Shown here piece by piece: positions 3,570-24,207 of a stretch of 33,220 bases of DNA. Within the stretch, counting starts at the first letter, position 1; every line of letters begins with the position of its first letter. The translations under genes and the position numbers were made by a program. The stretch comes from a virus: IMG/VR virus record IMGVR_UViG_3300017776_000075, positions 1 to 33,220 of that record; one strand, given 5' to 3'. The notes beneath the pieces were generated by a model. It worked only from the letters and a program-made list of their open reading frames with translations. It made no database searches and had not been told where the DNA came from.

Positions 3570-3988
3570 TTAGCCACACCGCCACCGGCTTGATGGGCGA
3601 GTACGTCGCCGCCTCGGCTGTGTTACAGTTTGGGTATCGCGTCTCGATGGCGCAGCAAGATAAAATTGACCTAGTATGCTGGGGTGACGATAATGAATTT
3701 TATCGCGTACAAGTTAAGACTAGCCACTTGGTTAAGAATGAGAGGCGTCGCAGCCCGGTGTATCATTTCCAGCTTAGCAGTGGATGCAAGACTAAACATT
3801 TACCGAGCGAGGAAGACTATGACCTATTATGCCTTGTGGGCGCTGAGCATAGGCGCACGTTGTGGTTGCCAATCTGGTCAGTGCGCCAATATACGAAGCG
3901 CGTGTCGGCCAAGCTATTTGATGAGGCTGAGGCGGAGCGTGCGTCGTTTTTTAAGGCGATTGAAATTGTCAGGGAAATGAGACGATGA
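3566..3988 (+). CDS. PD-(D/E)XK family endonuclease
   Basis: The GTG at 3566 overlaps the upstream stop (GTGA), giving 140 residues; an internal ATG at 3593 would remove the residues just before the first motif. Visible motifs are G-x-x-G-E at residues 8-12, K-I-D-L-V with Asp35, and R-V-Q-V-K-T with Gln49 and Lys51. This is the E...D...QxK arrangement of small PD-(D/E)XK nucleases, including Holliday junction resolvase-like enzymes. It probably cuts or resolves DNA in the host cytoplasm. Its place just before the lysozyme is unusual for a recombination enzyme. It is one of four PD-(D/E)XK-type proteins in the window. Confidence 0.68.
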   Translation: MISHTATGLMGEYVAASAVLQFGYRVSMAQQDKIDLVCWGDDNEFYRVQVKTSHLVKNERRRSPVYHFQLSSGCKTKHLPSEEDYDLLCLVGAEHRRTLWLPIWSVRQYTKRVSAKLFDEAEAERASFFKAIEIVREMRR

Positions 3989-6621: not shown

Positions 6622-7296
6622 TTAACTACTCCACTTGTTAGATTTACGCAGGTTTTCTTCAGCCGTGATTACCTGCAAATTCCACGGCACATGTAGACCG
6701 CATATGTCGTTACCTTGAAGCGGCACGATGTGGTCTAAATGAAATTTGATAAAGCCAGCTTGCTTATTCATGCCCCTGACTTTTCTCACCAGCCGGTCAA
6801 GCTCGCGCCTGTCGCACCACCTTGGCGTCGCCCAGCGCAAAGCCTTCTGACGTTTGAACGAGGCCAGCCGCATTGACGGCGACTGCTTGCGCCTCTCTCG
6901 CTTTGTCTTCTCAAACACAAGGCGGCGCGTTTCTGGCACAAACCGAATGATGTGCTTGACCGTGCGAAACTTCGGCGTCTTATGCGTCTTGACGCAGACG
7001 ATGTCCGAGCTGACGTCGTAGTCACCGTTGAAGTAAGTTTTCTGGGTGCGGTGCTTCGCCAGCACAAGGTAGCAGGACGCGTCGGCTGGCATGCCGACAG
7101 ATGTGGGGTAAACGACTGTGCCAACTTCTGGCGCGTATATCGAGCCATTCACCTCGACTGGGCGGTTGGGGTCATAGAAGTGATCGAACACGATGTAGCC
7201 GTCTGGAAGCTCGACCTTCATGCCGTCAGCCTCAAAGGCTCTGACGACGCTCTCATGCCCGCGTATGTCTGAGGCGGTAGTAAATGCGTGTATCAT
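6622..7296 (-). CDS. HNH endonuclease with long N-terminal extension
   Basis: The ATG at 7296 follows GGGGTG and overlaps the upstream micro-gene stop (tgATG); an upstream non-ATG start is less likely. The 224-residue product ends in a clear HNH fold: H-L-D-H-I-V-P-L-Q-G, then G-L-H-V-P-W-N-L-Q-V-I and E-N-L-R-K-S-N-K-W. This D-H-I-V-P-L...G-L-H-x-x-x-N-L-Q...N-x-x-K form is typical of phage HNH nucleases. The first 150 residues, including a basic R-E-R-R-K-Q stretch, have no recognised domain. It could serve in DNA processing or as a free-standing homing nuclease. It ends one base before the exonuclease start. Confidence 0.85.
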   Translation of the reverse strand: MIHAFTTASDIRGHESVVRAFEADGMKVELPDGYIVFDHFYDPNRPVEVNGSIYAPEVGTVVYPTSVGMPADASCYLVLAKHRTQKTYFNGDYDVSSDIVCVKTHKTPKFRTVKHIIRFVPETRRLVFEKTKRERRKQSPSMRLASFKRQKALRWATPRWCDRRELDRLVRKVRGMNKQAGFIKFHLDHIVPLQGNDICGLHVPWNLQVITAEENLRKSNKWSS

Positions 7297-7990: not shown

Positions 7991-8436
7991 TGCGCGCCGG
8001 TGGTGGACGTTCTAAGGGGGCGACCTTCGAGCGCGAAATAGCCAAGCTGGTTGAGCAGGCCACATCTCGCAAATTACGAAGACGCCTATCGCAATATCAG
8101 GAGAAGGATCTGAGCGATCTGGAACCTGCCGACGGCAAGCCGTTCCCGTTCCTGATCGAGTGCAAGCGGTACGCGAGCGGTGTGTCGCCGAAGTGGTGGG
8201 ATCAAATCGTCACGGCGGCACGGTCTGCGGCTAACGTCGATGACGCCCTGCCGTGCCTGATATATAAGCTCGATCGCCAGCCGATACAGGTGAGGCTGCC
8301 GGTGCAGGCGCTGGTGATGCTGGGCGCACCGTTGGCCGGTGACTTGGCTGAGGCGTATGACTGGCGCTACACGGTAACGATGGACTGGGACACATTCGAG
8401 ATGGTGCTGCGAGAGCATCTGGCGGGGGTAGTATGA
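7990..8436 (+). CDS. PD-(D/E)XK nuclease, Holliday-junction-resolvase-like
   Basis: This 148-residue protein shows G-A-T-F-E-R-E-I-A-K-L-V near residues 10-21 (helix with Glu), an Asp-rich strand (D40, D43) and F-L-I-E-C-K-R-Y with Glu57 and Lys59. This is the E...D...ExK pattern of phage PD-(D/E)XK resolvases. It probably resolves branched DNA before packaging, or trims replication intermediates. The start overlaps the upstream stop by one base; the stop overlaps the following 59-residue gene (ATGA). The exact subfamily is not certain. Confidence 0.75.
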   Translation: MRAGGGRSKGATFEREIAKLVEQATSRKLRRRLSQYQEKDLSDLEPADGKPFPFLIECKRYASGVSPKWWDQIVTAARSAANVDDALPCLIYKLDRQPIQVRLPVQALVMLGAPLAGDLAEAYDWRYTVTMDWDTFEMVLREHLAGVV

Positions 8437-8612
8437 AGTATTGGCTGATATTAGTGGTGATGACTAGCGACACGTCGGGTAAGGTCGACGTCATATCGAA
8501 GCACGAGACGATCAGCGAGTGTCACGTCGCAATGACAGCGCGCGGCTTTGAGCAGGTTGAGAACACCTACTGCTTAATTACCGAAGATGGCGTCGATTGG
8601 AAAATCAAGTGA
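8433..8612 (+). CDS. Small secreted or membrane-anchored protein, 59 residues
   Basis: The ATG at 8433 overlaps the nuclease stop (ATGA). The frame codes for 59 residues: a hydrophobic start (MKYWLILVVM), a short polar region, then S-E-C-H and N-T-Y-C with two cysteines 17 residues apart. This could be a signal sequence followed by a periplasmic disulphide domain. The plan resembles the 68-residue product at 2866. Its stop is overlapped by a GTG start. No function is known. Confidence 0.55.
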   Translation: MKYWLILVVMTSDTSGKVDVISKHETISECHVAMTARGFEQVENTYCLITEDGVDWKIK

Positions 8613-9040
8613 CCCGGCCGAAGTATGAGACGCAGGGCGACCTAGACAACGAGCAGCGCGTCGCTGACATGCTAGAGCTGCACGGGTACGAGCTTTGCAA
8701 GCTGCCGGTGCGTTATGAGCTGGACTTCGCCATACACGACCTGCGCGACGGCGGCTCGGTCTGCGGCTTCGGTGAGGTCAAGGCGCGCCGGGTAAAACAC
8801 GACGCATACCCGTCGGTGATGATCAGCTTATCAAAAGTTTTGAAGGCAAGGCAGTTGACAGACACGACTGGTTTGCCGTCTTATCTCATAATTCTCTACC
8901 TCGACTGTCTGGCGCGTTTGGACTTTGCCAGCGACTTCGAGGTGCGGAAGGGTGGTAGGTCAGACCGAGGCGACCCACAGGACGCCGACGTCTGTGCCTA
9001 CTACCAACTAAGCGACCTGCGAGTAATCAGGTCATTTTAA
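8609..9040 (+). CDS. PD-(D/E)XK nuclease-like protein
   Basis: The GTG at 8609 overlaps the preceding stop (GTGA); a TTG further upstream is possible but less likely. The product has 143 residues. Asp39 (Y-E-L-D-F) and Glu56-x-Lys58 (F-G-E-V-K-A-R) give a canonical D...ExK core, preceded by an N-terminal helix (LDNEQRVADMLELHGYEL) that carries a conserved-type Glu. A cluster of basic residues, A-R-R-V-K-H-D, follows. It is probably another DNA or RNA nuclease of the replication region; substrate is not predictable. Confidence 0.65.
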   Translation: MTRPKYETQGDLDNEQRVADMLELHGYELCKLPVRYELDFAIHDLRDGGSVCGFGEVKARRVKHDAYPSVMISLSKVLKARQLTDTTGLPSYLIILYLDCLARLDFASDFEVRKGGRSDRGDPQDADVCAYYQLSDLRVIRSF

Positions 9041-23046: not shown

Positions 23047-24207
23047 ATGACTGTGTTTTCAACACAAGCGGCTGTCGGCGAAAAGGAACAGCTCGCCGAT
23101 ATTATTTACCGCATTAGATAGGGTAGGTGCGGTCTAAACCGGATGAACTGCTGGAACCCTAAGGCGAAAGCTATGGCAATCAGCATCCAAGCCGTCGGTA
23201 CACCGGCGGAAGGTTCAGAGACTACCTGAGGGGTGAAGCCCCCTTAATAACAGGCTAGAGCGTCCGGCACCCCAAACCGGGGTGATGATATAGTCCACTC
23301 CCACCGAAAGGCTGGGGTATAAGGCGACCCTGCTGAAACACCGATTTTCAGCAACGTAAAAAAAGAGACCAGCAATGGTATCTTTACTGAGTGGCAGGTC
23401 CAAGAATTGGCTTCAGCATCTGCTACCAACTACCATAACGAAGGTGCGACGACTTCTACAGCCGCCGCAACTCCAACATCACGCGTGGGCAACTACCACC
23501 AGATTTCCAAGAAGGTATTTGCTACCTCAGGCACTCTGGACGCAGTTGACACAGCAGGCCGTGAGCGGGAACACAACTACCAGAAGGTGTTGAAGGCTCT
23601 CGAACTGCGCCGCGATATAGAGAAGGCAATCGGTGACACCGACGTTGCCCGCTCTGGTAACGACCCACGCAAGTCAGCGTCTTTGACTTGCTGGATCACA
23701 AACGGCTCAGTCGGCGCGACTGCCGGTGCCTTCGCCACAGGCGACGGAACCGACACGATCACCGGCGGAGACGACCGTGCGTTGACGCTTGCCCTCATCG
23801 AAGACGGCATGCAGGATGCGTGGACCGACGGCGGCAATCCCCGCCTGATGATTGCGTCTGCAACTAACCGCGCTAACTTCTCAGACCTGTCAGCGTCTGG
23901 CAACTTGGTGTCTAACGACGTGAACATGACTGCCGCTAAGGAAGTCACATACGTCGGTTCGACTTCAGTGTTCCTGACTGACTTCGGTACTGTTGAGGCG
24001 GTTCCATCACGTCTACTTGGTAACGACCGGGTGTTCTTGGTTGACCCAGACTTTGTGTCAATCTGCACCCTCAATGGCCGTAACTTCCTTGAGGAAGACT
24101 TGGCTAAAGACGGCGATGCTCAAACAAGCCACCTTGTGGTTGAGTGGGCGCTCAAGCCGACCGCGCCAAAAGCGCATGCAATGATTATGGACTTGAACGG
24201 TTCGTAA
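23047..24207 (+). CDS. Major capsid protein, SU10-like, interrupted by a group I intron
   Basis: The gene is split: exon 1 is 23047-23114, exon 2 is 23325-24207, total 951 coding bases and 316 residues. GAGGAG precedes the ATG by seven bases. Exon 1 codes M-T-V-F-S-T-Q-A-A-V-G-E-K-E-Q-L-A-D-I-I and Y-R; the junction codon is AT|C (Ile); exon 2 continues D-P-A-E-T-P-I-F-S-N-V-K-K-E-T. This Y-R-I-D-P-x-E-T-P block is the usual N-terminal region of SU10/DUF5309-type coat proteins, normally unbroken. Without splicing, translation stops at TAG 23119. The coat protein should have the HK97 fold. A terminator follows at 24221. Confidence 0.88.
23115..23324 (+). ncRNA. Group I self-splicing intron without ORF, IA-like
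   Basis: The 210-base element has a full group I core. P1 pairs exon ACCGCAT (23108-23114) with GTGCGGT (23127-23133), ending in the U-G splice-site pair. P3 is 23139-23145 with 23261-23267; P4 is 23149-23153 with 23081+100 (23181-23185); P6a is 23192-23198 with 23203-23209; P7 is GACTA (23220-23224) with TAGTC (23291-23295); P7.1 is CCTG with CAGG; P7.2 is a GC hairpin; P8 is 23268-23273 with 23279-23284; P9 is a GAAA hairpin. The last base is G (23324), and exon 2 pairs with GGGT as P10. P7.1/P7.2 point to subgroup IA. No nuclease gene is inside. Confidence 0.9.

Follow-up and report, generated by a model that had tools for sequence, protein, structure and literature searches.

Introns in phage coat genes are already known, from mycobacteriophage LittleE and lactococcal phage Tuc2009, as are ORF-less introns in cyanophage psbA that belong to the lineage considered here. 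The major capsid gene of LittleE carries a probable group I intron, with splicing observed by RT-PCR (PMC3706429). It is also known that ORF-less introns can be mobilised in trans: F-CphI, a free-standing nuclease encoded beside the psbA intron of S-PM2, cuts empty psbA in a process termed 'collaborative homing' (PMC6083498). The window that we analysed, 33220 bases long, comprises one entire IMG/VR virus record. Our analysis of its sequence and of its relatives confirmed that 23115-23324 is an ORF-less group I intron in the coat gene, with guanosine-dependent self-splicing predicted.

The reading frames of the coat gene were compared with the alleles of its relatives (Table 1). Exon 1 opens with ATG at 23047 and its frame meets a TAG at 23119-23121, whereas the frame of exon 2 is open from 23326 to the TAA at 24207 and its earliest in-frame start-like codon is TTG 23407, 27 codons in. 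Removal of 23115-23324 restores a codon split as AT and C and yields a 317-codon ORF without internal stop. Among the best 80 IMG/VR relatives of the coat gene, 64 of the 79 readable alleles are continuous across the exact junction and 14 relatives carry a 210-nt insert there; one record (L036) is truncated within the insert, and another (L035) begins too late to tell. The original prediction had exon 1 stopping at TAG 23119, the coat protein resuming at 23325 without a start, and excision leaving one 317-codon frame. Our reading of the ORFs agrees on each point, and the 64 intronless capsid genes read straight through the predicted exon border.

A second scan, with the P1 sequence as pattern, found 27 stretches. 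All 27 complete alleles, the window included, are 210 nt long and end in G, and all are flanked by TACCGCAT upstream and CGACCCTG downstream. They also share the intron start TAGATAG, which is part of the P1 pattern that retrieved them. The intron-compatible exon end GCAT is kept in 19 of the 64 intronless alleles, and no further RF00028 match was found in nine intronless records. A terminator-like hairpin stands directly 3' of the coat gene in carriers and non-carriers alike.

Because of the in-frame stop and the missing start, coat production would depend on splicing, itself a prediction. It is hardly credible that the insertion is dead and that coat translation begins internally, within exon 2: the first start-like codon of that frame is the distant TTG, the N-terminal residues are part of a single frame in the intronless relatives, and the 27 metagenomic alleles keep the length, the terminal G, P1 and the core, with compensatory changes in the lineage.

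Table 1. Coat gene exons and predicted intron elements in the window.
Feature	Position	Strand	Remarks
Exon 1, major capsid gene (SU10-type major head protein)	23047-23114	+	22 codons plus AT; adjoins exon 2 directly in 64 relatives
P1 5' strand, exon side, ACCGCAU	23108-23114	+	ends in a U-G pair
ORF-less group I intron, 210 nt, IA-like (P7.1/P7.2)	23115-23324	+	RF00028; 27 equal-length alleles; covariation
In-frame TAG	23119-23121	+	halts translation 7 nt past the splice site in unspliced RNA
P10 strand GGGUAG	23121-23126	+	pairs with exon 2 CGACCC, 5/6
P1 3' strand / internal guide sequence GUGCGGU	23127-23133	+	
P3 5' strand	23139-23145	+	partner 23261-23267; 3 pairs with two-sided changes
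P4 (23149-23154 / 23180-23185) and P5	23149-23185	+	Rfam match, 38-intron mapping
P6 and P6a	23187-23213	+	two-sided changes in 6/7 P6a pairs
P7 5' strand, guanosine-site helix	23220-23224	+	partner 23291-23295; invariant
P7.1/P7.2 extension, characteristic of subgroup IA	23225-23254	+	P7.2: one two-sided pair
P8	23268-23284	+	4 pairs with two-sided changes
P9 hairpin, GAAA loop	23299-23317	+	
Terminal guanosine of intron	23324	+	G in 27/27 alleles
Exon 2, major capsid gene	23325-24207	+	PHROG 1328 major head protein, E 1.4e-68

A cmscan of the whole window against Rfam returned a single match above threshold, to RF00028 (Intron_gpI), at 23072-23316 on the plus strand, with 69.7 bits (gathering threshold 50 bits; E 6.6e-16). 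The generic P1 of the Rfam model, from 23072, lies too far upstream for the splice site; the P1 drawn between 23108-23114 and 23127-23133 has seven consecutive pairs and places its terminal U-G at the 5' splice site. In a mapping of P3-P8 onto 38 members of the lineage, pairing held in 99.2% of cells, and 15 pairs, in P3, P5, P6a, P7.2 and P8, had changed on both sides. Two-sided changes occupied 164 cells against a shuffle mean of 52.1, where the shuffles ignore relatedness; with the partner slid by one column, a control that keeps relatedness, pairing fell to 42-47% (maximum 47.2%). The P7.1/P7.2 extension, between the P7 5' and P3 3' strands, pairs in 38 of 38 sequences. Compensatory P3 changes (C-G to U-A and A-U to G-C) were also seen in L012 when the capsid carriers only were considered. 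The single-sequence fold of the intron was no more stable than shuffles (z -1.0), thermodynamic folding being poor at group I pseudoknots.

Together with the exact empty sites in relatives, the Rfam match over cut-off and the covariation bear out the group I class that had been proposed, and the structure that came with it (P1 with its U-G pair, a P3-P9 core and a partial P10) can be drawn. The intron is also free of a homing nuclease, as predicted, with no endonuclease ORF found within its 210 nt. The remark that 210 bases is small for an IA-type intron did not hold, since the lineage includes ORF-less psbA introns whose cores are similar in size.

The relatives of the intron were sought by blastn of the whole region against 50,697 phage records. 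The best intron matches were cyanophage psbA introns, led by S-SRM01 (78.4% over 164 nt, E 9e-29) and followed by S-PM2 and S-RSM88 (E 3e-22); these outrank the introns that crAss-like, Vibrio, Pseudomonas and Shewanella phages have in other genes. A 27-mer picked from the capsid and psbA introns, which gives the width of one lineage and no census, found at least 119 stretches. All 136 listed matches fall in psbA (111) or in the window-type coat gene (25), and the psbA matches among those listed occupy roughly seven positions along D1. A pattern for the window's form of P5 found the intron solely in this coat gene. A tree of the introns with outgroups, short and long-branched, places the capsid intron inside the psbA introns with weak support. 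These comparisons, in which the related sequence spans about 160 nt, indicate that the capsid intron belongs to the cyanophage psbA intron lineage and is closer to it than to other phage introns. No psbA was found in 18 records of the window's phage group, so the lineage has crossed between unrelated phages. In three cyanophage records (L118, L176 and L202), psbA itself carries two or three introns of this lineage at different sites.

We then placed intron presence on a tree of exon 2, with its first 200 positions left out. Presence changes nine times on this tree, at least eight of the changes being forced by well supported branches, and sister pairs such as L017 (carrier) and L022 (non-carrier) differ in it. 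Moreover, carriers that agree at only 30-60% of their fourfold sites, near saturation, have introns that are 94-97% identical. Vertical inheritance, from an ancestor with the intron and with most lineages having since recombined with intronless alleles, would account for the constant site and length and for the GCAT ends among the intronless alleles. We consider such repeated precise loss quite unlikely, for the intron stays near-identical in distant genomes despite the nearly saturated fourfold sites, while in the lineage at large the peripheral helices P6a and P8 are free to vary.

The exons around the site are also informative. In one clade, nearly all non-carriers read TACCGGAT before and TGATCCGGC after the junction, and carriers read TACCGCAT and CGACCCTGC. 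The foreign exon tract in these carriers extends from about -15 to +50, about 65 bp. Each of four carrier/non-carrier pairs differs at 13-14 of the 65 positions around the site and at 27-40 of 683 outside it (p about 1e-5 to 1e-4 per pair); non-carrier pairs show 0-5 differences in the 65 positions. The four pairs belong to one clade and may reflect one acquisition plus local exchange, hence fewer than four events. Such a tract is what homing predicts, as it co-converts flanking exon (PMC3984707). Under vertical inheritance, by contrast, the same tract would need replacing repeatedly, since non-carriers of this large clade nearly all read GGAT followed by TGATCCGG. With a GGAT exon end, P1 would contain a G-G mismatch; the exon brought in would therefore be the one that the ribozyme needs. 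The pattern thus points to spread of an ORF-less intron with co-conversion of the flanking exon, through an uncertain number of independent events.

The intron might instead move as free RNA that reverse splices into capsid mRNA and is then reverse transcribed and recombined, no DNA nuclease being involved. This would fit the failure to find a nuclease, and it would also fit the restriction of the intron to targets that match its guide sequence. Nevertheless, it seems very unlikely: reverse splicing should spare recipient exons, whereas carriers in the GGAT clade have exon replaced on both sides, and a non-exhaustive scan of the window genes detected no reverse transcriptase.

All together, we consider it highly probable that a group IA-type intron of the psbA lineage, predicted to splice, has spread in a homing-like manner with its flanking exon, helped by a break from elsewhere or by ordinary recombination. 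The intron would remove itself from late mRNA through the usual two-step reaction initiated by guanosine, and the 317-residue coat protein could then be made. Its horizontal spread among these small phages would be a homing-like conversion at the DNA level, running, as we infer, from carrier to empty allele and taking the flanking exon from about 15 bp upstream to 50 bp downstream, and the P1/P10-compatible exon would travel together with the ribozyme. Because the intron encodes no nuclease, the break that starts conversion would have to come from elsewhere, by trans or 'collaborative' homing; alternatively, conversion may ride on ordinary recombination in co-infections. A wider scenario is more tentative, and we hold it at somewhat less than even: an ORF-less intron of psbA type may have left cyanophages for the coat gene of small phages lacking psbA and swept through a single site with a putative nuclease in trans, the P1 exon supplied by co-conversion widening the range of alleles that it can enter.

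We searched for a nuclease that could serve the intron. None was found between the coat gene and its neighbours, and no gene of at least 50 aa separates the four near-complete carriers from the eight near-complete non-carriers by occurring in every one of the former and in none of the latter. The Pfam models HNH, HNH_3, GIY-YIG and Endonuclease_7 had no match in carriers, and matches to Endo VII-like PHROG models did not track intron presence. Two genes of the window are candidates only for a nuclease in trans. One is an Endo VII-like HNH gene (6622-7296, minus strand; PHROG 1035, E 2e-9), found in two of the four carriers and one of the eight non-carriers with near-complete genomes. The last 57 residues of its protein are 77% identical to a gene of carrier G001 (8068-8667) and the N-termini are unrelated; by its sequence it looks like a chimeric free-standing homing nuclease. 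The other is a PDDEXK_5 nuclease gene (3593-3988, plus strand), which adjoins the lysozyme gene and is present in 14 of 19 records tested. It had looked promising, but it occurs in carriers and non-carriers alike; a search by sequence found no solved relative of its protein. A host search with the coat protein and terminase against bacterial genomes gave nothing usable.

Whether the intron benefits the phage, by delaying capsid synthesis or by protecting the site against a rival's nuclease, rather than being a neutral or selfish passenger, may also be asked. The S-PM2 psbA intron does block F-CphI cleavage (PMC6083498), and the capsid intron is highly conserved. Still, we judge a benefit unlikely, given that about four fifths of close relatives lack the intron and that no matching nuclease was found.

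Other introns occur in this coat gene. In phage C72C1 (OQ984150; L002:4213-4453), a different group I intron (RF00028, 81.8 bits) lies near codon 105. Its GenBank record lists two 'major head protein' CDS separated by small antisense ORFs, the intron being apparently unannotated, and a literature search for C72C1 by name found no paper. Two coat genes with the codon-23 intron have a second group I intron, near codon 92 at L222:4243-4493 (minus strand) and near codon 87 at L234:6279-6506 (plus strand). Contig G003 (IMGVR_UViG_3300025818_000063) has coat exon 1 and the opening bases of the intron once more at its far end; its ends show no simple exact repeat, and it is possibly a strain-mixed assembly.

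Two aspects go beyond routine. One is the clear population record of an ORF-less intron's horizontal spread; the other is that at least four different introns have entered one coat gene, at codon 23 and near codons 87, 92 and 105. If our reading is true, a natural population offers for direct comparison the donors of one ORF-less intron, its empty targets and the recipients that it has converted, some of these alleles coming from the same metagenome project, and the spread of nuclease-free introns becomes directly testable. An intron lineage of a cyanophage photosynthesis gene would also be tied to a virion gene of unrelated phages. Furthermore, because gene prediction breaks up such coat genes, C72C1 being one case, capsid-based phage surveys would miss or truncate them.

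Compared with described systems, C72C1 shares the same coat gene and is the nearest sequenced relative (75% aa), but its intron occupies another site and its ribozyme is only distantly related. The LittleE intron likewise has U at the exon end and G at the intron end; it is 819 bp long with a homing-endonuclease ORF and belongs to another phage group, unlike the 210-nt ORF-less intron described here (PMC3706429). The BAKA/Optimus intron is also ORF-less (265 bp), lies in a virion structural gene and is spliced, but that gene is a tail gene of actinobacterial phages and no psbA link was shown (PMC3706429). Tuc2009, likened here by its description in PMC3706429, has an intron in a capsid subunit gene. 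The psbA introns of S-PM2, S-RSM88 and S-SRM01, the nearest by sequence of all known relatives, differ from the capsid intron in host gene (photosystem II D1 versus coat protein) and in the form of P5, and the S-PM2 intron adjoins the F-CphI nuclease whereas the window's coat gene has none beside it. Nevertheless, these psbA introns share with the capsid intron an ORF-less core of similar size and the P3-P8 architecture, at 75-78% DNA identity over 156-165 nt.
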